Origin: Pseudobdellovibrionaceae bacterium
Lineage (GTDB): Bacteria; Bdellovibrionota; Bdellovibrionia; Bdellovibrionales; Bdellovibrionaceae
Direction: 5' to 3'
Length of the DNA: 64,000 bases
Assembly: GCA_022843825.1 (NCBI GenBank)
Contig: JALHMX010000004.1
Coordinates: 62,001-126,000 of the forward strand
The position numbers and the translations under genes were made by a program. Under the pieces are notes generated by a model. That model was not told the DNA's origin, made no database searches, and was given only the letters and a program-made list of their open reading frames with translations. Positions 37,521-51,021 of this stretch are shown piece after piece. Position 1 is the first letter of the stretch; every line of letters begins with the position of its first letter.

Positions 37521-38945
37521 ATGCAATTCAAAAATAAGACATTTCAAAAACTTTGGCGATTCGCGACTTCATTTCAACTGGGAATTCCTGTTATTGCATC
37601 AATTATGATTTTGTCAATTTGGGGGACGATTGTAGAATCTCGTTATGATGCGTGGACTGCGCAAAAGGTCGTTTACCAAAGTTGGTGGATGTATATTTCA
37701 ATGACACTTTTAGTTTTTAATTTGACCATTGTCATGATTGATCGATTACCTTGGAAAAAAAATCACTACCCCTTTATTTTGGTTCACATAGGAATTATTA
37801 CCATTGTTTTGGGTGGGTGGATCACGCAAAAATTTGGCATTGATGGCAGTATGCGGGTGCCCATCGGCAAATCCCATAACATGGTGACAGTTCCTCCAAC
37901 TGATTTTTCTGTTTATGCGACATTTGATGGCGAAAGATATACAAAAATTTACGATCGAGAGGTCGATTTTTTTAATTCTAATATCAGCGAATCCAGGCCC
38001 GTGGTTTTTGATCTTAATTACGGAACTTCACCAGACAGCAATCAGTTGAAAGTGCTTAAATACTACCCTTATGCGCGTGCGTCCCAAAAAGTAATACCCA
38101 CAGATGAGATCGCAGCAGGAAGCTCTATACGTTTTCAGCTTATGAATGCGCAAGTAAAGCAGATTGAAAGTTTAACACAGCAAAATAAAAACAAAGTTGC
38201 TGAGACCACGCTAGGATTACTGAATCTATACTTGGGCTACAATGTTGATGTATTAGGAAGGAAAAATCCGCAGTCGAATGAGGCCTATTTTAATTCAATC
38301 GATAAGCAGTACTTGTCCTTTTCATTTTATAATAAAGATAATCCAAAGCCGTATCAAACAGGTAAGATAAAAATCGGTGATGTGATTCAAACTCAGTGGA
38401 TGGGCTTAGAAGTTCGACTGTTGGACTATAACGAAAAGGCAAAATCCTTGTGGGAAGTGATACCGACGGACTACCCAACGGCATTGACCACCAGTGCGAT
38501 TCAAATCAGTATGGGAAAAAATACGGAATGGATTCTGTTAAATGATACAGTTAAAATTTTCACTGACAACGTAGCCTATATAGTGGCTTATCATAATCGG
38601 CAGTTACCCTTAGACTTTAAAATTCATGTGAATAAGTTTGAAATAGAAAAGTATCAGGGCACTGAAAGGGCTAAAGAGTATTCTAGTCTGGTGACCGTGG
38701 ATGATCCACTGTACAGCTCAGCGGAACCTATTTTAATTTCAATGAATGAGCCACTGAAGTATCGAGGTTATACTTTTTATCAAGCCAGCTTTGACTTGGA
38801 CGAAAACACCGGACAGCCGGTGGCATCGATTTTTTCGGTAAACCGAGATCCAGGAAGAACGACTAAGTATTTAGGTTCAATTATTTTTTCATTAGGTATA
38901 GTGTGGCTTTTTTATCAGCGACGTAAAAGGAGAACAGCAATATGA
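37521..38945 (+). CDS. resB: Cytochrome c biogenesis protein ResB (Ccs1)
   Basis: ResB with CcsA forms system II, which exports haem and attaches it to apocytochromes on the periplasmic side. Three membrane helices lie in the first ~115 residues (one around LGIPVIASIMILSIWG, two around TLLVFNLTIVMI and ILVHIGIITIVLGG), then a large periplasmic part, and a final helix near residue 450 before a basic tail. The length of 474 aa is compatible with the family. The C-terminal LKYRGYTFYQASFD is a family hallmark. It overlaps ccsA by 4 bp. Confidence 0.92.
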   Translation: MQFKNKTFQKLWRFATSFQLGIPVIASIMILSIWGTIVESRYDAWTAQKVVYQSWWMYISMTLLVFNLTIVMIDRLPWKKNHYPFILVHIGIITIVLGGWITQKFGIDGSMRVPIGKSHNMVTVPPTDFSVYATFDGERYTKIYDREVDFFNSNISESRPVVFDLNYGTSPDSNQLKVLKYYPYARASQKVIPTDEIAAGSSIRFQLMNAQVKQIESLTQQNKNKVAETTLGLLNLYLGYNVDVLGRKNPQSNEAYFNSIDKQYLSFSFYNKDNPKPYQTGKIKIGDVIQTQWMGLEVRLLDYNEKAKSLWEVIPTDYPTALTTSAIQISMGKNTEWILLNDTVKIFTDNVAYIVAYHNRQLPLDFKIHVNKFEIEKYQGTERAKEYSSLVTVDDPLYSSAEPILISMNEPLKYRGYTFYQASFDLDENTGQPVASIFSVNRDPGRTTKYLGSIIFSLGIVWLFYQRRKRRTAI

Positions 38946-40669
38946 AGTTTTTAATCAGCTCGGTTTTACTGGTCTTGTGTCTTCTGTTTTCTGGATTTAC
39001 TTTGCAGGCCGCTCCGGGAGAACGAATAAAATATATACCCGTTCAAGATGGTGGCCGGATTAAGCCTTTTGATTCTTTTGCGCGAGAGACTTTAGAGCTT
39101 ATTTACGGCAGATCATCATTTAAACGTACAGTTTCAGGCCAAAGCAGCTCTAGGGAGCCTGCCTATATTATTGTAATGTCTTTTTTATTGTCACCTGAAA
39201 GTTGGGTAGATGTTCCTGTTTTTGAAGTAAAGAACTTTGAAGTTAAAAAGTATCTCAACTTACCTCAAGATCAAAAATACTATACAGGAAATGAGTTATT
39301 CAAAGGGGAATTGTTTGCAAACTTAATGCAGCAATTAGCAGATAAACGGGAAACAAAAGAGAAGCTGACGCCGTATTATCAAGCGATACAAAGGCTGGAA
39401 AATCAGTTTTTTACATTTCGAGAAATTACAGCGGGGCGGTATATAAAAATTATTCCTCCAGAACTTTCAGATGAACCCCGAGCCGAAGGAGATAATAGTT
39501 GGGTTTCCGTTGCCGACTTACCTGAAAAGTATCAAGGCTTGTTTATCAACTTAAGTCAAAATTTAGCCAAGTACTTGGGAGAAGTTGTTAAAAGTGGAGA
39601 GAGATCAGAATCCGTTCTGGAAAGTGCAAAAAAATTAGATGAGTCCGTGGATCAGTTTATAAATACTGTTAAAACAGATGCTCAGGCGAAGAGTGCGGTT
39701 TCCTACAATCAAGCAAAAAAAGTAAGCGCTGAGATTTTCTACAACGAGGCTCACATTTTTAGATGGTCGTACATTTTTTATTTATTAGGAGCGCTTACAA
39801 TTCTTGTCGTTTGGATTAGAGACCTCAGTCGCGGTATGAAACTGGCCTGGATTTTAACTTTGATCGGTTTTACGTTACAGACGATCGGTTTTTTGTTTCG
39901 CGTTTACTTGGCGGAAAGACCTCCGGTAACGAATATGTATGAGACCGTAGTATGGGTTTCATGGGGTGCTGTTCTGTTTGCAATGATTTTGGAAAAAATT
40001 TACCGGTATAAATCTATTTTATTGTCAGGTTTATTAGTCGGTGTTTTTTCTATGGTCGTGGCGGATATGGCGCCGGCAATTTTAGATCCCAGCATACAGC
40101 CTTTAGAGGCTGTCTTAAGAAGTAATTATTGGCTTATTATCCATGTTATGACGATCACAATTTCCTACGCCGCTTTTTTTCTGGCACTTGCGCTGGGGGA
40201 CCTGGGGCTTATTTATTATGTTATTAATCCTAAAAAATATCAGGAGCAGATACGAAATATTTCGACTGCAATTTATCGAGCTATGCAAATTGGAGTAGCA
40301 TTTCTAGCACCGGGAATAATATTGGGTGGAGTTTGGGCAGATTACTCGTGGGGTCGTTTTTGGGGTTGGGATCCTAAAGAAACTTGGGCATTAATTGTCC
40401 TTTTGGGTTACATAATAGTGCTGCACGCGCGATTAGTAAATTGGATTCAGAATTTTGGGATGCTGGTTTCTGGAATTCTTACATTTAATCTGGTTATCAT
40501 GGCTTGGTACGGAGTTAACTACGTTCTTGGCGCAGGGCTTCATTCCTATGGATTCGGCGCGGGTGGGATCGAGTATGTTTCAGTTTTTACTCTCGCACAT
40601 GTTCTTTTCGTCATCTACGCGGCCGTAATCAAAAAAACTTATGTGTCTGCAAGTAAAGATGTGAAGTGA
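38942..40669 (+). CDS. ccsA: Cytochrome c biogenesis protein CcsA, with long N-terminal region
   Basis: CcsA carries the haem-handling WWD domain of system II. GRFWGWDPKETWALIVLLGY is the tryptophan-rich signature, with flanking membrane helices and conserved histidines (IIHVMTITISYAAF, LHARLVNW, LHSYGFG). The N-terminal ~270 residues add a signal-like segment and a periplasmic domain, making it 575 residues, well above the usual ~300-400; this fused extension recalls the CcsBA-type arrangement of some Proteobacteria and Bacteroidetes. An AAGGAGA site precedes the ATG. actA follows after a 121-bp gap with a promoter candidate. Confidence 0.92.
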   Translation: MKFLISSVLLVLCLLFSGFTLQAAPGERIKYIPVQDGGRIKPFDSFARETLELIYGRSSFKRTVSGQSSSREPAYIIVMSFLLSPESWVDVPVFEVKNFEVKKYLNLPQDQKYYTGNELFKGELFANLMQQLADKRETKEKLTPYYQAIQRLENQFFTFREITAGRYIKIIPPELSDEPRAEGDNSWVSVADLPEKYQGLFINLSQNLAKYLGEVVKSGERSESVLESAKKLDESVDQFINTVKTDAQAKSAVSYNQAKKVSAEIFYNEAHIFRWSYIFYLLGALTILVVWIRDLSRGMKLAWILTLIGFTLQTIGFLFRVYLAERPPVTNMYETVVWVSWGAVLFAMILEKIYRYKSILLSGLLVGVFSMVVADMAPAILDPSIQPLEAVLRSNYWLIIHVMTITISYAAFFLALALGDLGLIYYVINPKKYQEQIRNISTAIYRAMQIGVAFLAPGIILGGVWADYSWGRFWGWDPKETWALIVLLGYIIVLHARLVNWIQNFGMLVSGILTFNLVIMAWYGVNYVLGAGLHSYGFGAGGIEYVSVFTLAHVLFVIYAAVIKKTYVSASKDVK

Positions 40670-40718
40670 TGATTTTTTAAGAAAGCTTATTGTTGTCATT
40701 AAGTTTTCAAAATCCACC

Positions 40719-40747
40719 GTGACATTTTAAAGCAACTGTTTTTAAAT
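40719..40747 (+). promoter_or_regulatory. Sigma70-type promoter candidate for the act operon
   Basis: GTGACA at 40719-40724, a 17-nt spacer and TTAAAT at 40742-40747, in the 121-bp gap between ccsA and actA. Five of six and four of six bases match the consensus. The leader to actA would be about 37 nt. Confidence 0.4.
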
Positions 40748-40790
40748 TAGAGTCGATTATTTTATTTCAAGATAAGAAAGGCAAAAAAAT

Positions 40791-41366
40791 ATGTCTATGC
40801 GGAGCTTTTTGCGTTCAACGATTAAAGTTGATGTACTAAAAACTTTAGTCTTAATTTTTGCGTCGATAATTTTTACGGGGTGCTTATTTACCAATCCAGA
40901 CGGTGGAGAGCGAATTGGGATCGGATACAACAAAGGGTATTCACCAGAACAACCTTTACCATTTAGTCATGAACAGCATGTCGGACTTCATAAAATTCAA
41001 TGTCAGTATTGTCATAACCAAGTCGAAAGATCCAAACACGCAAATATTCCATCTTTAGCGACGTGTATGAATTGCCATCAACAAGTTAGTGGTACAGAAA
41101 ATACTGAAAGTATTAAAAAGTTGCGGGAAGCTTATGCAGACAATAAGCCTATTGAATGGGTTAGGGTTCACATGCTTCCTGATCATGTTCAATTTGACCA
41201 TCAGGCCCACGTGACAAAAGGAGTAAGTTGCCAAACTTGTCACGGTGAAATTGAAAAAATGGCTAAAGTTTATCAGTATTCTGATTTGTCGATGGGATGG
41301 TGTGTGAGTTGTCATCGCCAACCAGAAAATAAAGCGCCTTTGAATTGCACCACTTGCCATCAATAA
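40791..41366 (+). CDS. actA: Alternative complex III pentahaem cytochrome ActA
   Basis: ActA is the multihaem subunit of the quinol:electron-acceptor oxidoreductase ACIII. Five CxxCH motifs are visible (CQYCH, CMNCH, CQTCH, CVSCH, CTTCH). The N-terminus has a membrane helix ending in FTGC (Cys31), so it may be lipidated or anchored. Length 191 aa. The haems need system II, which is encoded just upstream. It begins the actABCDEF run. Confidence 0.93.
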   Translation: MSMRSFLRSTIKVDVLKTLVLIFASIIFTGCLFTNPDGGERIGIGYNKGYSPEQPLPFSHEQHVGLHKIQCQYCHNQVERSKHANIPSLATCMNCHQQVSGTENTESIKKLREAYADNKPIEWVRVHMLPDHVQFDHQAHVTKGVSCQTCHGEIEKMAKVYQYSDLSMGWCVSCHRQPENKAPLNCTTCHQ

Positions 41367-41381
41367 AAGTAGGAAATAAAT

Positions 41382-44300
41382 ATGTCTATTAATAACGATG
41401 CTAACGAACAAAGACCTAAAAGTACTGAAGTTAAAATAGAGCGCGATCGCAATTTTTGGAAATCGTTCGATGAACTTTATGATACGCCTGAATATAAAAA
41501 AGCTGTGGAAACAGAGTTTATGAGTTCTCCGTTGAGGGATGAGTTTAAAGACGAGGGCACAAGCGGTTTTGCCAGACGAGAATTTTTAAAACTGATGGGT
41601 GCTTCTGTGGCTTTAACTACAGCGGCAGGTTGCATTCGACGTCCAGTGCAGAAAATTGTTCCTTATGTGAAGCAGCCCGAAGAGGTTACTGTCGGGGTAG
41701 CCAATTATTACACGTCTTCCTATTTTGATGGACAAGAGGGTTTTGGACTATTGGTCAAATCTCGAGAAGGTCGTCCAATACACATTGAAGGTAATCCATC
41801 ATATCCTTTGAACGGATCCGCAGTGTCGGTTCGTGCTCAGGCTTCTTTATTAAGTTTATATGATCCGGCTCGTCTTCAAAAACCGTTTCGTAATTTATTT
41901 AACGAAAAACGTACGAACAAAGAAACCGTTGGCGTAACTTGGGAGGATTTAGACACTAAAGTTGTCGCTCAACTGCAAAAAGGTTCAGTGGCTGTCTTAA
42001 CAGGAAATATTGTCTCACCGGCAACCAATGCCGTTATTGGCGATTTTTGTTCGGGTTTCAAAGCAGAACAATATTCATGGGAACCTTTAGCTTACGGAGA
42101 TACAGTAGAGGCTCGCTATGATAAAGCTAAAGTGATAGTTTCCATTGACGCGGACTTTTTAGGTTCATGGGGATCAGCAATAACTTCCAACCGGCAGTTT
42201 GCAAATGGACGTAGAGATCCGAGTCAGATGTCCAGATTAATTTCGTTTGAATCGACTTATTCATTAACGGGTGCAAATGCAGATATTCGTCATCGAATTA
42301 AGCCATCTCAACAATTAGATGTGGTTCTGGGTTTAATATCATTAGTGTCAGGTGGTTCTACGCAAGTGCATGAGACCTTAGGAATAAGTGCTGAGGCCTT
42401 TCAAAAAGTTGCAGAAGATCTGAAAAACAATAGAAGTAAAAGTATTGTTGTCGCCGGTGGTGTACAAACGCAGACCGTGGATGCTGAAAATCTACAGATT
42501 GCAGTAGATCATCTTAATTCAATTTTAGGAAATCATGGCAACACGATTGGCGCCCGTTCAAATATGAAGGCTTCATATCAATCCTTAAACAGTTTGATCA
42601 AGGCCATGAATCAGGGATCTGTTAAAACTTTGATTATTTACCGTCAGAACCCACTTTACACTTTGTCTAAAAGTTTTGGATTTCATGAGGCCTTAAATAA
42701 AGTTGAAATGGTCGTATATGTTGGCGATGTGATGGACGAAACAGCTAGTTTTTCTCATTATGTAGCTACTGATAATCACTCTTTAGAAACCTGGAGTGAT
42801 AGCGAATTTTCTCGCGGACTTTATGGTATTCATCAGCCTTTGATTCGAACAATGTATGATACACGGTCTTTCCAGCTGTCGTTAATGACCTGGGCGTACA
42901 TGGCAAAAGTGGGTCCAGCACGGATTCAAAATTACGAGACTTTTTATGATTATTTAAGAGCTTTTATTAAATCCGACATTGCACCTAAATACGCTAAAGG
43001 TCAGGACTTTGAAACTTTTTGGAATCAACTTTTGCAGCAAGGTTTCGTGGGCCAAGTAGGATCTTTGGTTTCTAAGGCAACTTCAGGTTCAATTTCCAAT
43101 ATTAAGAAATCTTCCAAATCTGCCAACATGGAATTAGTTATGTATGCGAAGTCACATATTGGTGACGGAACATTAGCTAATATTGGTTGGCTACAGGAGT
43201 TACCAGATCCAGTCTCGAAGATAGTATGGGATAACTACGCGAGTATTTCGTTGAAGGCGGCGGAGAAACTAAAACTCAAACAAAATGACGTAGTTGAGCT
43301 AACAGTTGGTGATGTAACTTTAAAACTACCTATTCACATTCAACCAGGTTTGCATGACGAAGTAGTGGCGGTGGCCGTAGGTTATGGTCGTACTAAGGCC
43401 GGTGAAGTTGGCAATGGAATCGGTGTAAATGCTTATCCATTGGCTCAAGTCGGTCAAAACGGACAACCTATTTTGGCGGGTCAAAACGTTGAAATCAAAA
43501 AGACAGGTAAAAAATATGAACTTGTAACCACTCAAGGTCATGATTCAATGGAAGGTCGCCAAATCGTTGTTCAAGCTACGAATAAAGACTTTCAAAAATC
43601 TAAAGAGGCAAATATACATCGGCATCACGTTTGGTCTATTTGGTCTGGTCATCAATACAATGGACACAAGTGGGGAATGTCGATTGATTTAAATACTTGT
43701 ACGGGTTGTTCGGCTTGTATGACCGCCTGCCAATCTGAAAATAATATTCATGTGGTTGGCAAGAAATACGTTATGCAAGGTCGAGAAATGCACTGGATAC
43801 GTATTGATCGTTACTACGTAGGTTCTCCTGAAACAGCGCAAGCCGTGTTTCAGCCTATCACCTGTCAACATTGCGATAACGCTCCTTGTGAAGTTGTATG
43901 CCCAGTGGCTGCCACTGTACATAGTAACGAGGGACTTAATGAAATGATTTACAATCGTTGCGTAGGAACTCGATATTGCTCTAATAACTGTCCTTATAAG
44001 GTGCGACGGTTTAATTGGTTCAATTATGCTAAATTGATCCAGTCGCCGACGCATATGTCGCTAAATCCAGAAGTCACTGTCCGCACTCGTGGAGTTATGG
44101 AAAAGTGCAGTTTTTGTGTTCAAAGAATTAAAGTCGCGAAACAAAAGGCCACTCAAGAAAATCGATTACTTAAAGATGGAGATGTAAAGACCGCTTGTGA
44201 AGTGGCTTGTCCCACTCAAGCGATCGTTTTCGGTGATCTGAACGATGAAAAATCTCGGGTAGCTCAAATTTTTACCAATGAAAAACGTGCTTATACATTA

Positions 44301-44396
44301 CTTGAAGAGTGGTATGCAAAACCAGCGGTTAGATATTTATCTAAAATTAGAAACAACGATGAAGTAACTGCCCCGAAAGGAGCTGGCCATGCTTAA
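41382..44396 (+). CDS. actB: Alternative complex III iron-sulfur/molybdopterin-like subunit ActB
   Basis: A 1004-residue periplasmic subunit. A Tat signal RREFLKLMG (Arg65-Arg66) is followed by TAAGC with Cys84 as a possible lipobox. The first ~700 residues form the molybdopterin-oxidoreductase-like domain, which in ACIII lacks the metal cofactor. From Cys773 onward a ferredoxin-like domain has four Cys clusters ([39 protein letters not shown] with CEVAC). An AGGA-containing site lies upstream of the ATG. The 3' end overlaps actC by 8 bp. Confidence 0.95.
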
Positions 44397-45759
44397 GCGT
44401 AATCAACTCGTTTTGGGTAATAAAACTTTAAGAGATGTGACGAATGATATATGTGAGCCCATAGAAAGAATTCCATCTAAGGGATGGATGGGATTGTTCC
44501 TAGCTGCTAAAGGCTTGTTTATATTTTACATACTAACGATAGCTGTAGTTATTTCTACAGGCATGGGATTGCTCGGTGTAAATCATCCGGTGGCTTGGGG
44601 AACCATGATTATCACTTTCGTATTTTGGGTGGGTATCGGTCACGCGGGAACGCTGATTTCTGCAATTCTATTTTTATTTCGTCAGAAGTGGAGAACCTCT
44701 GTCGCGCGCACCGCGGAGGCTATGACCGTATTTGCCGTAATGACTGCGGGTATTTTTCCATTGATACATACCGGTCGTCCATGGTTTGATTTTTGGTTAT
44801 TTCCTTATCCAAATCAAAGGGGACCTTTATGGGTCAACTTTAGATCTCCGTTATTGTGGGACGTATTTGCGATTTCTACTTATGCAACAGTGTCTACTGT
44901 TTTTTGGTTTGTCGGCATGATTCCAGATTTAGCGACGGTCCGTGATCGTGCAAAAAATTTCTGGAGACAGAGAATATACGGAGTACTTTCTTTAGGGTGG
45001 AAGGGGACTGCAAAAAATTGGTCCCATTTTGAAATGATCTATTTGATTTTAGCAGGCCTTTCAACGCCCCTAGTATTATCCGTTCATACCATAGTCTCTT
45101 TTGACTTCGCCGTTTCAGGTTTACCAGGGTGGCATACTACAATTTTTCCACCGTATTTCGTTGCTGGTGCGATATTTTCTGGTTTTGCCATGGTCATTAC
45201 GCTGATGACTTTAGTACGAATTGGTTTTCCAAAGTTTAAAGACTATATCACGATCGATCACATGGAAGTCATGAATAAGATTATTATGATGACAGGCCTG
45301 ATGGTTGGTTACGCCTACGGTGCAGAGTTCTTGATTGCTTGGTACTCGGGAAATATTTATGAGCAGTATGTTTTCTTCGTCAGCCGCGCCTTTGGTCCCT
45401 ATGCGTGGTCATACTGGATTATGATTTGTTGTAACGTTGTCATTCCACAAATCTTCTGGTTTAAAAAGTTCCGCAGATCTATTCCGGTTATGTTTGTAGT
45501 ATCCATTTTCGTTAACATTGGTATGTGGTTTGAGCGTTTCGTTATTACGGTAACTTCCTTGCACCGGGATTTCCTTCCGTCGAATTGGGGACAGTATGCA
45601 TGGTCCATGTATGATACGGCTATCCTGATAGGATCATTTGGTATGTTCTTTACTATATTTCTTTTATACCTACGGGTGTTTCCAGCGATATCAATTGCTG
45701 AAATCAAACCCGTCTTAGGGGTTGGACGCGATGACCATGAACATGGTGGAGGACACTAA
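44389..45759 (+). CDS. actC: Alternative complex III quinol-binding membrane subunit ActC
   Basis: A 456-residue NrfD/PsrC-like integral membrane protein with about ten helices that holds the quinol site of [30 protein letters not shown] and [22 protein letters not shown] are typical of ActC. The C-terminus ends in a His-rich tail. It starts 8 bp inside actB, with AAAGGAG upstream. Confidence 0.94.
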
Positions 45760-45760
45760 A

Positions 45761-46288
45761 ATGGCAAAAAAATCTATTAGCGGTGTTGCCGGAATATTTT
45801 TAACTGAAGGTAAAGTGGTGAATGCCGCTCGCAAAGTGCGTGAGGCCGGCTACAGCAAATTAGAAGCAATATCTCCTTATCCTATTCATGCCATGGAAGA
45901 GGCTTGTGCCATTAAGCGATCACCAATTCCGTATATGACTTTTTTGGCAGGCATCGTCGGAATGCTCGTCGCACTGGCTTTAACTTATTATACGTCAGTG
46001 ATTGATTGGCCGATAAATATTGGTGGTAAACCGCTTTTTTCATTGCCTGCATTTATTCCCATTATTTTTGAGTTAACTATATTATTTGCAGCATTAAGCT
46101 CAGTGGGATTATTTCTTTATTTGTGCGGGATGCCTGCGATCGGTGTGCCTCCCATAGATAAGGATTTAACATGTAATAAGTTTGCTATTTTTGTGCCTGA
46201 TACTGACAAAAATTATAACTTTGAAACCTTAGATCGTATGTTCAAAGACCTTGGTGCGGTTGAAGTGAAGAAAGTGACGGAGTTTTAA
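45761..46288 (+). CDS. actD: Alternative complex III subunit ActD (DUF3341)
   Basis: A 175-residue membrane subunit of the DUF3341 family. ISGVAGIFLTEGKVVNAARKVREAGY is the N-terminal cytoplasmic part, and SPYPIHAMEEA precedes two membrane helices. I start it at the ATG at 45761, one base after the actC stop, because GGAGGA lies 7 nt upstream; the longer frame would add residues from the actC end. Its role in ACIII is structural, connecting ActC and ActF. Confidence 0.92.
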   Translation: MAKKSISGVAGIFLTEGKVVNAARKVREAGYSKLEAISPYPIHAMEEACAIKRSPIPYMTFLAGIVGMLVALALTYYTSVIDWPINIGGKPLFSLPAFIPIIFELTILFAALSSVGLFLYLCGMPAIGVPPIDKDLTCNKFAIFVPDTDKNYNFETLDRMFKDLGAVEVKKVTEF

Positions 46289-46289
46289 T

Positions 46290-46856
46290 ATGAAGAAAAC
46301 TGCAGTCAAAACTTTAACATTCTTAAGTCTTTTTATCTTAATATTTTCAGGGTGTAACATAGATAAGTCTCAGCCGAACATAGAGCCTATTCAAGATATG
46401 TTAGACTCGCCAGCTGTTGATGCCCAAGAGTATGATGCGTCTTCGCCTAATAAATCAGGAATGCGAGTTCCGCCTGAGGGCACTCAGCCTAAGGGATTTG
46501 TCCCTTATCGCTACGCTGCTGATCTAGAGCGGGCGCAAAAAAACGCAAATCCATTAGCCTCTAAAATGGATGATGAAATTCTGGGTGTGGGTTTAAAGTA
46601 CTACACTATTCACTGTGCTATTTGTCATGGTGATCAAGGTGAGGGTGCGGATAAAAGCTCGATCGCAGAGAAGATGGCCTTGAAGCCACCGACTTTATTG
46701 AGCGATAAAGTCAAAGCGTGGACCGATGGTCATATTTATCACGTCATTACAGTCGGGCAAGGGGTAATGGGGCCTTATGCTTCACACATTCCAGAACAAT
46801 ATCGTTGGCAGGTCGTGAACTATATTAGATATCTGCAAAATACAGATAAAAAATAG
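46290..46856 (+). CDS. actE: Alternative complex III monohaem cytochrome c subunit ActE
   Basis: A 188-residue cytochrome c. The N-terminus is a lipoprotein signal ending in FSGC (Cys22). One CAICH haem site, a downstream GVMGPYA Met ligand candidate and a class I fold are visible. It probably relays electrons from ActA to the terminal oxidase. It starts one base after actD, with GGAG upstream, and actF follows after 21 bp with AAAGGA. Confidence 0.92.
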   Translation: MKKTAVKTLTFLSLFILIFSGCNIDKSQPNIEPIQDMLDSPAVDAQEYDASSPNKSGMRVPPEGTQPKGFVPYRYAADLERAQKNANPLASKMDDEILGVGLKYYTIHCAICHGDQGEGADKSSIAEKMALKPPTLLSDKVKAWTDGHIYHVITVGQGVMGPYASHIPEQYRWQVVNYIRYLQNTDKK

Positions 46857-46877
46857 CACACAATTAAAGGAATAAAA

Positions 46878-48074
46878 ATGGGATCATCACACCATAATAT
46901 AGAACTTAAGATATCAAAGTTTCAACCGGCTCTAGCTTTTAAATACTCAGCCTATGCGGGAATTTTGATTGGTATTATCGCGGCCGTCTTTGGATTATTT
47001 AATAATCCTGAAAGAATGTGGACTGCTTATCTTGTGGCATTTTTCTATTTCGCCTCAATGGGGTTAGGTGGATTGTTTTTCTTATCATTTAGCAATGCTT
47101 CTAAAGCAGGATGGCATTCCTCCATTAAGCGATTGGCAGAAAGTTTTACTCAATTTTTGCCTTATATGGTTGTAACCAGTATTGTTATGATCTTGGGATA
47201 CAAGTATTTGTACTCATGGGCAGACCCCACACAAATTCACCGCATGACCGGTGGTAAAGAAATTTATCTTAATTTTTGGTTTGTTGTAGCTCGAGTGATT
47301 ATATTTGGTTTAGGGTGTCTAGCCTTTAAACATATGATTGTAGGGAACTCGATTAAACAAGATCAAAATGGCGACGTGAAATACACAGAGAAAAACGTTG
47401 GAAACTCTATTGGTTTCATTGCTTTTTTCGCACTATTTTTTACTATGTTCTCAATTGATTTACTTATGTCATTATTACCAAGTTGGTATTCAACTATTTA
47501 CGGCATTTATATGTTCGCAGGTATGTTGCAATCCACTTTTGCCATGTTAGCCCTAGTGGTCATCTTCTTTAAAAATTCTAAGTTCGTCAGCGGATATATC
47601 ACCGTAGAGCATCAACATGATGTTGCAAAGTTTTTAAAGGGTTTCACTGTGTTTTGGGCCTATATTGCCTTTTCGCAGTTTATGCTTATATGGTATGCAA
47701 ATATTCCTGAAGAGACAGAATTTTATTTAATGAGATCACACAGTGGTTGGATCGTGGTTTCTATAGGTCTACTTATTTTTAGATTTATTGTTCCATTCCT
47801 AGCGTTATTGCCTCGCGAAGCTAAACGAAATGACATGAATCTAGCGGCGGTGGCTATATTAGTCTTAGTCATGCAGTACATCGACATTTACTGGCAGGTC
47901 TATCCTAACTTTAATGATGGGGTTCCGGTTTTTGGTTTCTATGAGATTGCATTGTTCCTCGGTTTTTTTGGTTTATTTGCGGTGGCGGCGACTCAGTTTT
48001 TATCTAAAAACAATATAGTGGCTATTAAAGATCCAAGACTTCATGAGGCTATTAAGCATCACGTAACATACTAG
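46878..48074 (+). CDS. actF: Alternative complex III membrane subunit ActF
   Basis: A 398-residue NrfD-like membrane protein with about ten helices, the second large membrane subunit of ACIII. Features include YLVAFFYFASMGLGGLFFLSF, ending the first helical pair, and DVAKFLKGFTVFWAYIAFSQFMLIWYANIPEET, a typical ActF block. It closes the actABCDEF run. No oxidase gene (coxB/coxA) follows, although in many genomes cytochrome oxidase genes come next. The 66-bp gap after it holds a hairpin that covers the next gene's ribosome-binding site. Confidence 0.93.
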   Translation: MGSSHHNIELKISKFQPALAFKYSAYAGILIGIIAAVFGLFNNPERMWTAYLVAFFYFASMGLGGLFFLSFSNASKAGWHSSIKRLAESFTQFLPYMVVTSIVMILGYKYLYSWADPTQIHRMTGGKEIYLNFWFVVARVIIFGLGCLAFKHMIVGNSIKQDQNGDVKYTEKNVGNSIGFIAFFALFFTMFSIDLLMSLLPSWYSTIYGIYMFAGMLQSTFAMLALVVIFFKNSKFVSGYITVEHQHDVAKFLKGFTVFWAYIAFSQFMLIWYANIPEETEFYLMRSHSGWIVVSIGLLIFRFIVPFLALLPREAKRNDMNLAAVAILVLVMQYIDIYWQVYPNFNDGVPVFGFYEIALFLGFFGLFAVAATQFLSKNNIVAIKDPRLHEAIKHHVTY

Positions 48075-48114: not shown

Positions 48115-48137
48115 TCCCCCTTGTTTCGTGAGGGGGA
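48115..48137 (+). promoter_or_regulatory. Hairpin enclosing the ribosome-binding site of the glutaminase-like gene
   Basis: TCCCCCT at 48115-48121 pairs perfectly with AGGGGGA at 48131-48137 around a 9-nt loop. The right arm is the purine-rich ribosome-binding site 3 nt before the ATG at 48141. No U-tract follows, so it is not an ordinary terminator. Folded, it would hide the ribosome-binding site. Confidence 0.55.
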
Positions 48138-48140
48138 TAG

Positions 48141-48932
48141 ATGTTTAAGAAGATTATATTATTAATTATACTTCCGCTTGTATTCGCTGTGAATGCACTA
48201 GCTCAAGAAGTTGTTTCCGCAGTACGGCCAATTCGTGAAAGCTGGAAAGTAACGGCAGCCCGTTATGAGTTTAATCGTAAATTTAATTTTAAGATTTTCT
48301 CTGTAGGACAAACAACAGCCTATGACTCGCGAACGGACAAAATTAATCTTAAAAAGCTTCCTGAATTTGGTAAAAATGATGCTGAATATTTTCAGATGTT
48401 TAATGATATTCGCGATAGACGGTTTTTAAAAGATCCCGACGTTGAAAATTTTCACCGCCGTATTTCCTGGTTATATCCCTACGATGGATGTTTTGCACGT
48501 GCAGAACATGTGGCTCATCTCATTAACAAAATAGACCCTAAGGCTCAGTTTGGCCGAGTTTTTATTTTTGGTGACCTAGAGGTTCAGACGCCCAACAGTA
48601 CAACGGGTTCTGTTGGTTGGTGGTACCATGTGGCCGTTATATTTAAAAGCCAAGGTAAAGCTTTCGTGATTGACCCGAGCCTTAACTATTATAAACCTCT
48701 TGAGTTGTCAGTATGGGTTAAAATGATGGTGCCAGAGGAAACTGATGCTGAGTTAGCTTTATGTTCGGCTTGGACGTATACTCCGAGCTCTGATTGTATG
48801 GAAAAAGAACCGATGTCTGAAGGCTCTGCGGCCAGTGGTATTTCTCGATACTTGAGTGCCGAGCGCGATAATCTTATTGAATTAGGACGCAACCCTGAGG
48901 CGGAATTGGGACATAGTCCTCCTTGGCTATAA
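48141..48932 (+). CDS. Secreted protein-glutamine glutaminase (deamidase)-like protein
   Basis: A 263-residue protein with a clear signal peptide (cleavage after ALA near residue 22). The sequence follows the Chryseobacterium protein-glutaminase core: YPYDGCFARA with Cys117, a VFIFGDL strand, WWYHVAVIF with His163, and VIDPSL with Asp178, the expected Cys-His-Asp triad. Such enzymes convert protein-bound glutamine to glutamate. It seems to be followed by a Ser/Glu-rich tail and has no obvious inhibitory pro-region. It lies alone between actF and thrS. A role in attacking prey or extracellular protein is inference. Confidence 0.85.
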   Translation: MFKKIILLIILPLVFAVNALAQEVVSAVRPIRESWKVTAARYEFNRKFNFKIFSVGQTTAYDSRTDKINLKKLPEFGKNDAEYFQMFNDIRDRRFLKDPDVENFHRRISWLYPYDGCFARAEHVAHLINKIDPKAQFGRVFIFGDLEVQTPNSTTGSVGWWYHVAVIFKSQGKAFVIDPSLNYYKPLELSVWVKMMVPEETDAELALCSAWTYTPSSDCMEKEPMSEGSAASGISRYLSAERDNLIELGRNPEAELGHSPPWL

Positions 48933-49044: not shown

Positions 49045-51021
49045 ATGTCAAATATGTCAGTTCAAATAATTCTTCCTGATAACTCTATTCGCACCTTTGA
49101 GCACGAGCCAACAACCTTGGAAGTGGCGCAAAGTATTGGGTCCAGGCTAGCTAAAGATACCTTAGGAGCTAAGATTAATAGTTTGCCGGAAGTTATTGAT
49201 TTGCGCACTCCATTAAAAAATGGAACAAAACTTGAAATCGTTACTACAAAATCAAAAGAGGCCTTAGAGGTCGTACGACATTCAGCAGCCCACTTAATGG
49301 CTCAGGCCGTTCAAGAAATTTGGCCTGAAGTTAAAGTCACTATAGGTCCAGTGATCGACAGTGGTTTTTATTATGATTTTGATTCACCATTTACTTTTAC
49401 GGAAGAGCATTTTGCGCAAATCGAAAAAAAGATGGAAGAGTTGCAAAAAAAAGATTTAGTAATCACACGTGAAAATTGGCCGATACAGAAAGCCATCGAT
49501 ACTTTTGTCAAAATGAATGAACGATTTAAAGTTGAGTTGATTCAAGATCTTGCCGCAAAAGGTGAAACTGAAGTCGGAATCTATCACCAAGGAAGCTGGT
49601 TTGACCTTTGTCGCGGACCCCACGTTCAATCGACTGGGCAAATCAAGTCATTTAAGTTGATGAGTGTGGCAGGAGCTTACTGGAGAGGTGATCAAGCCAA
49701 TCCAATGCTTCAAAGAATTTATGCGACAGCTTTTCAAGATAAAAAAGAGTTAGAAGAGTATCTTAAGAATTTAGAAGAAGCTAAAAAGCGCGATCATCGT
49801 AAACTTGGTAAAGAGTTAGGGATGTTTACTTTTCATCCCTGGGCGCCAGGGTCTCCATTTTTTACCGGACGAGGCGCCTTAGTTTATAATGAGTTACTGG
49901 CTTATCTTCGAGAGCTTTATTTTAAATACGGCTATAATGAAGTGATCACTCCTCAAATTTTTGATGTGGAACTATTTAAAACTTCAGGACATTTGGCTAA
50001 TTACAAAGACAATATGTTTTTTACCAAAATAGATGAGCGTGATTTCGCCACTAAGCCTATGAATTGTCCCAGTCATTGTTTATTGTTTGCTTCAGAGAAA
50101 TACTCTTATCGTGATCTTCCTTACCGTATGGCGGACTTTGGTCGACTTCATCGTAATGAAGTTTCGGGTGCTTTATCCGGTCTGACGCGTGTTCGAACTT
50201 TTTGTCAGGATGATGGACATATTTTTTGCACCAAAGAACAATTACAAAGTGAAATCAAAAACTTCGTGCAAATGTTGAATGAAGTTTATCAAAAACTGGG
50301 TATGAGTGATTACAAAGTCTATCTTTCAACTCGACCTGAAAAGCGTATTGGAACAGATGAAGATTGGGATAAGGCAGAAGGCGCTTTAGCCAATGCACTC
50401 GAGTCGCTAAAAATTCCTTATGAAATAAACCCAGGCGATGGGGCTTTTTACGGTCCAAAGTTGGATATTATGTTTGTTGATGCCTTAAAAAGGTCTTGGC
50501 AGTTAGGAACTGTCCAGTGTGACCCTAATCTCCCACAAAATTTTGGACTTAAATATACCGGTGAAGACAACGCTGAACATACACCGTTAATTCTTCATCG
50601 CGCGGTCTTAGGATCATTAGAGCGGTTCATTGGAGTTTACTTAGAACACACCGCGGGTCATTTACCAAGCTGGTTGTCGCCGACGCAAGCTGTGATTCTT
50701 AATGTAACCGATCGGGTAAATGATTTTTGCGAAAAAGTTGAAAATTACTTAAAGCACGAAATGATTCGAGTAGAATTTGATCGGCGTAATGAAAAATTAA
50801 ATTTCAAAATACGGGAAGCTCAACTCAAAAAAGTACCTTATATGTTAATTGTCGGGGATAAAGAAGCGGAGGCGGGTACTGTGTCGATCCGTTTACGTGA
50901 CGGAAGTCTTCATAATAATATTAAGTGGCAAGCCGCTTGTGATATGATTATTAAAAATTCTCGCGATCGAGAATTACAAACGTTAGTTACAACAAATTCC
51001 GCAAACAGCGGAGCTACCTAG
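49045..51021 (+). CDS. thrS: Threonyl-tRNA synthetase
   Basis: A class II synthetase of 658 residues. The N-terminal TGS domain, the editing domain with HSAAHLMAQAV, the catalytic core with motif 2 (FGRLHRNEVSGALSGLTRVR), the zinc Cys in MNCPSHCLL, motif 3 (LHRAVLGSLERFIG) and the anticodon domain at the end are all visible. No ribosome-binding site is apparent in the ~20 nt before the ATG, so a short or leaderless message or a start at the next Met (49054) is possible. Its stop forms part of the infC ribosome-binding site (TAGGAGG). The 112-bp gap upstream holds only weak AT-rich pairing. Confidence 0.96.
   Translation: MSNMSVQIILPDNSIRTFEHEPTTLEVAQSIGSRLAKDTLGAKINSLPEVIDLRTPLKNGTKLEIVTTKSKEALEVVRHSAAHLMAQAVQEIWPEVKVTIGPVIDSGFYYDFDSPFTFTEEHFAQIEKKMEELQKKDLVITRENWPIQKAIDTFVKMNERFKVELIQDLAAKGETEVGIYHQGSWFDLCRGPHVQSTGQIKSFKLMSVAGAYWRGDQANPMLQRIYATAFQDKKELEEYLKNLEEAKKRDHRKLGKELGMFTFHPWAPGSPFFTGRGALVYNELLAYLRELYFKYGYNEVITPQIFDVELFKTSGHLANYKDNMFFTKIDERDFATKPMNCPSHCLLFASEKYSYRDLPYRMADFGRLHRNEVSGALSGLTRVRTFCQDDGHIFCTKEQLQSEIKNFVQMLNEVYQKLGMSDYKVYLSTRPEKRIGTDEDWDKAEGALANALESLKIPYEINPGDGAFYGPKLDIMFVDALKRSWQLGTVQCDPNLPQNFGLKYTGEDNAEHTPLILHRAVLGSLERFIGVYLEHTAGHLPSWLSPTQAVILNVTDRVNDFCEKVENYLKHEMIRVEFDRRNEKLNFKIREAQLKKVPYMLIVGDKEAEAGTVSIRLRDGSLHNNIKWQAACDMIIKNSRDRELQTLVTTNSANSGAT

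Follow-up and report, generated by a model that had tools for sequence, protein, structure and literature searches.

The closest described systems are the protein-glutaminases (PG) of Chryseobacterium proteolyticum and Flavobacterium (EC 3.5.1.44; 2zk9, 2ksv, 3a54, 3a56, 8z3i), which are made with a signal peptide, a propeptide of 108–118 residues and a mature enzyme of 185 residues (PMC9396377, PMC6132073). The published catalytic triad of the mature Chryseobacterium enzyme is Cys42, His83 and Asp103 (PMC3498931). Human NTAQ1 is likewise a glutamine deamidase with a Cys-His-Asp triad (PMC4214742) and acts on N-terminal Gln only. SseI and the C-terminal domain of the Pasteurella multocida toxin display a similar broad fold and the same type of triad, and work inside animal cells.

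We uncovered a gene in the window (the whole stretch of 64,000 nucleotides analysed here) whose product is, like PG, predicted to be exported. It shares with PG the order of the Cys-His-Asp triad, the motifs DGC-x-x-RA, W-x-YHVA and DP, and the core fold, with about 20–24% identity in fold alignments. In our preferred reading, to which we would give a probability of about 0.68 on the strength of homology and a structural model, this protein is a Sec-exported protein glutamine deamidase with the PG fold, whose likeliest role would be in feeding by way of extracytoplasmic or prey proteins. The features on which the argument draws are the following:

48141–48932, + strand: gene for an exported protein-glutaminase-like protein of 263 aa (open frame; PF18626, E 4e-24)
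48116–48136, + strand: perfect hairpin CCCCCTTGTTTCGTGAGGGGG, with a G-rich Shine-Dalgarno in its 3′ arm and extended pairing over the start codon (RNA fold)
48141–48203, + strand: signal peptide, residues 1–21, with KK, a hydrophobic core and A-L-A before the cut (by inspection; predicted cleavage site)
48204–48365, + strand: N-terminal segment, residues 22–75, at the position of the PG propeptide and half its length, with S-A-x-R at 26–29 (conservation, model)
48393–48728, + strand: catalytic core, residues 85–196, Gln_deamidase_2 (PF18626; Foldseek to PG structures)
48489–48491, + strand: codon of the catalytic Cys117, aligned to PG Cys42 (45/45 relatives)
48627–48629, + strand: codon of the catalytic His163, aligned to PG His83 (45/45 relatives)
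48672–48674, + strand: codon of the catalytic Asp178, aligned to PG Asp103 (45/45 relatives)
48729–48929, + strand: clade-specific C-terminal region, residues 197–263, with Cys208/Cys219 and a terminal G-x-x-P-P-W (conservation)

The ATG of this gene stands immediately 3′ of an in-frame TAG, and an earlier start is therefore impossible. The original prediction had read the frame as a secreted homologue of protein-glutaminase, with the catalytic residues Cys117, His163 and Asp178 in the motifs YPYDGCFARA, WWYHVA and VIDPSL. The frame is real, all three motifs are present and the numbering is right. Indeed, Pfam recovers PF18626 (Gln_deamidase_2) on residues 85–196 with 85 bits against a gathering cut-off of 25 (E 4.2e-24), and the match runs over positions 3–106 of the 106 in the profile, i.e., the full domain; the same profile is matched by 45/45 members of the clade to which the protein belongs. 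Among solved structures, the significant sequence matches are protein-glutaminases only (8z3i, 2zk9, 2ksv, 3a54 and 3a56): a single-sequence query of the PDB reaches 8z3i with E 2.8e-11 and 2zk9 with E 2e-6, and the profile of the relatives reaches them with E 6e-21 and 7e-16, respectively. The residues C117, H163 and D178 align to Cys42, His83 and Asp103 of mature PG and to C183, H227 and D242 of the 8z3i chain, and the triad is invariant in all 45 relatives. Homology to protein-glutaminase with an intact triad, as first proposed, thus stands on the Pfam match, the PDB matches and an exact alignment of the triad. The NCBIfam equivalog for the Chryseobacterium enzyme (NF040782, PG_glutam_Chrys) scores 53.9 bits, on residues 72–195 only, far below its cut-off of 250 bits. 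On these comparisons we classify the product as a PF18626 member and PG-like variant that falls outside the curated PG equivalog and lacks the classical propeptide.

A model of the mature protein (residues 22–263) made with AlphaFold from 45 sequences has a mean pLDDT of 93.9 and a pTM of 0.91. In a Foldseek comparison with the PDB, the first six matches are PG chains (E 6e-9 to 3e-6, probability 1.00), followed by structures of human NTAQ1 at E of about 1e-4; no neighbors besides these two appear at E<0.001, and an earlier full-length model has the same fold neighbors at that threshold. Hence, all confident fold neighbors are glutamine deamidases, and the comparison with PDB protein-glutaminases that had been suggested as a check comes out in favor of the homology, at the level of the predicted fold. 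NTAQ1 has no sequence match to the window protein and is 14–18% identical to it in fold alignments. SseI and the Pasteurella multocida toxin domain give weak fold matches (E >=0.006), likewise have no sequence match, and can be regarded as fold relatives only. The TM-scores against PG are 0.57–0.61 on the length of mature PG and <0.5 on that of the query, with an rmsd of 5–8 Å; in the model, the similarity to PG lies in the core. These modest TM-scores imply that the substrate pocket and the edges of the domain may differ from those of PG.

The superfamily defined by the Cys-His-Asp triad also takes in transglutaminases, along with LapG and other proteases (PMC4214742, PMC3498931), and one could accordingly picture the triad of the window protein performing transglutaminase or cysteine-protease chemistry in place of deamidation. 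We consider this very improbable: the fold matches to transglutaminases and LapG come only at E >0.2, against 1e-4 to 1e-9 for PG and NTAQ1; neither a transglutaminase nor LapG was matched by sequence in Pfam or the PDB; and PG are the only solved proteins that the sequence does match. Glutamine-deamidase chemistry is likely, as judged from homology. In such a reaction, following removal of the signal peptide after Sec export, His163 and Asp178 would activate Cys117 for attack on the side-chain amide of a protein-bound glutamine, ammonia would be released, and water would complete the conversion of glutamine to glutamate, with the site of action outside the cytoplasm.

The signal peptide can be read by eye from the sequence as MFKKIILLIILPLVFAVNALA^Q, with Ala-x-Ala preceding the cut. 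By inspection it is typical, as the original prediction had it, and a comparable N-terminus is seen in all full-length relatives. In mature PG the catalytic Cys is preceded by 41 residues; the same spacing before Cys117 sets the mature-like start near residue 76 and leaves a stretch of only about 54 residues downstream of the signal peptide, where known PGs have 108–118; the remark that no long pro-region precedes the core is thus borne out. Neither the NF040782 profile nor the family-profile search of the PDB detected a match between the PG pro-region and residues 22–75. Within this segment lies an S-A-x-R motif, with Arg29 in 44/44 relatives and Ser26 in 41/44, and the Arg is found 80–99 residues upstream of the catalytic Cys across the relatives. 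AlphaFold models residues 22–75 as ordered and mostly with high confidence (means of 84–96 over blocks of 10 residues). The segment may represent a propeptide of reduced length or, alternatively, a cap that is integral to the enzyme.

The first of these options amounts to a zymogen like that of Chryseobacterium, whose PG is produced as an inactive pro-protein (PMC13139226): residues 22–75 would be a shortened autoinhibitory propeptide that occupies the active-site cleft until a protease removes it. The position of the segment, its almost invariant S-A-x-R and its modelled order are all compatible with this. However, similarity to PG stops short of the propeptide, the segment is half as long, and the invariant Arg and confident packing suit an integral element equally well; moreover, an uncut pro-PG from Bacteroides is active (PMC13139226). 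We therefore regard cleavage-dependent activation as possible but somewhat doubtful. It concerns regulation rather than chemistry, and may well be compatible with the protein being a glutamine deamidase. If that deamidase were active without removal of a propeptide, it would be of interest to food-protein work, where such removal is a step in production.

The other end of the protein also sets it apart from PG. The PF18626 domain covers only residues 85–196, and the conserved N- and C-terminal elements of the window clade fall outside it. The C-terminal third cannot be aligned with PG by sequence, and a family-profile search of the PDB gave no PG match for the last ~65 residues. This region has its own pair of cysteines and a PPW end, which are strongly conserved among the relatives (C208 in 44/44, C219 in 45/45 and W262 in 43/43); the pair Cys208/Cys219 possibly forms a disulfide. 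As we picture the preferred deamidase, the short ordered N-terminal segment with its invariant Arg, together with this clade-specific C-terminus, would replace the long propeptide architecture.

The original prediction held that a deamidase of this kind would be new for such organisms, which is not the case. The full-length clade that includes the window protein separates cleanly by BLAST (>=117 bits against <=58.5 for other family members), and its members, mostly single-copy, are about 31–42% identical to the window copy. It occurs in 51 of the 141 genomes of the order (E<1e-40) and extends to other families in the phylum. In genus g6, 22 of 24 genomes carry the gene, including those of 3,782,950 and 3,988,594 bases, which we take to be B. 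bacteriovorus HD100 and Tiberius. Of the 13 relatives in the genus of the window genome, only G002 (2,657,893 bases), presumably B. exovorus JSS, carries it; several of the genomes of this genus without the gene carry more distant family members instead. The tree agrees broadly with taxonomy, its deep branches being weak, and thus fits an old gene that has often been lost. From these comparisons the clade appears to be old and mainly vertically inherited within Bdellovibrionota, and the gene would be a member of an old family spread across the relatives of Bdellovibrio rather than a curiosity of the window genome. The branch of the window copy is among the longest, and this copy is 36–37% identical to the orthologues assigned to HD100 and JSS, whereas the neighboring ThrS (49045–51021) is 73–75% identical to the same two genomes, a contrast suggesting that the exported protein has evolved fast.

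The gene lies between an upstream operon resembling alternative complex III and thrS downstream. The stretch directly upstream (37521–48074) appears to hold cytochrome-assembly-like genes followed by the alternative-complex-III-like operon. An operonic or functional link to either neighbor was rejected, since the neighbors differ from genus to genus; as they are unconserved on both sides, the gene probably works independently of them. The orthologue assigned to HD100 (G060:C1:3709596–3710354) adjoins comF-, rimO- and rlmH-like genes at 3.71 Mb, and this position led us to drop a link to the hit locus, which had been prompted by an orthologue near 106 kb in G062. An origin in defence or phage systems was likewise set aside (no PADLOC match and no significant PHROGs match).

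The original prediction had further pictured the deamidase as released on prey or host proteins. This gains no support from the genomes: no conserved linkage of the clade gene to predation genes was found across the genera compared, and no copy is present in 12 of the 13 relatives in the window's own genus (G001 and G003–G013). The predatory lifestyle of the source organism is itself suggested by analogy with its relatives. For the preferred deamidase, the likeliest role would be to modify or solubilize extracytoplasmic or prey proteins and thereby aid feeding.

It is also conceivable that the enzyme is a substrate-specific glutamine deamidase directed at one or a few envelope proteins, whether its own or those of the prey, rather than a broad feeding PG. 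Distinct conserved elements flank the core on both sides, among the fold neighbors are NTAQ1, which is specific for N-terminal Gln, and, as a weak match, SseI, and strict specificity is possible in related deamidases (PMC3498931). Nevertheless, the core is nearest to the broad-acting PGs by both sequence and fold, the window copy is fast-evolving, and no constant partner gene stands beside it; we therefore think such narrow specificity unlikely.

The literature search returned no paper linking Bdellovibrio to protein-glutaminase or protein deamidase, and the function thus appears unexplored there; more generally, extracytoplasmic protein deamidation in predatory bacteria appears unstudied. Given the conserved orthologue in the genome that is probably that of HD100, which is genetically manipulable, the question is directly testable. 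Nothing relevant to expression or knock-out of the HD100 orthologue was found in the main texts of PMC2797640 and PMC6561027, and the papers searched yielded neither activity nor expression results for the gene.

A further peculiarity of the window copy concerns its start codon. The hairpin at 48116–48136 has an RNA-fold z of -3.86, and its pattern has a single match in the whole 2.4 Mb genome. The fold of the start region is the most stable among 55 genes of the window (-20.3 kcal/mol against a median of -5.7), and some relatives have weaker folds at the corresponding position. No Rfam elements were found around the gene, and a scan found no intrinsic terminator. The hairpin could serve to reduce translation or, alternatively, to shield the upstream mRNA at its end. 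A composite account, in which a phylum-wide clade of deamidases with termini of its own would be active without a propeptide and deamidate prey proteins in feeding, with translation restrained by the hairpin in this species, strikes us as improbable as a whole.

Taken as a whole, the family is found in 39 of 60 genomes of relatives (E<0.001), and a single genome, G019, has as many as five members. The glutaminase superfamily is expanded in Bdellovibrionota (L056, L065, L072, L080, L087, L089 and other PF18626 loci). Among its members are secreted subgroups that carry a G-F-C-F-G-R-A … H-V-A-T motif and are extended at length on the N-terminal side, with one protein reaching ~660 aa.
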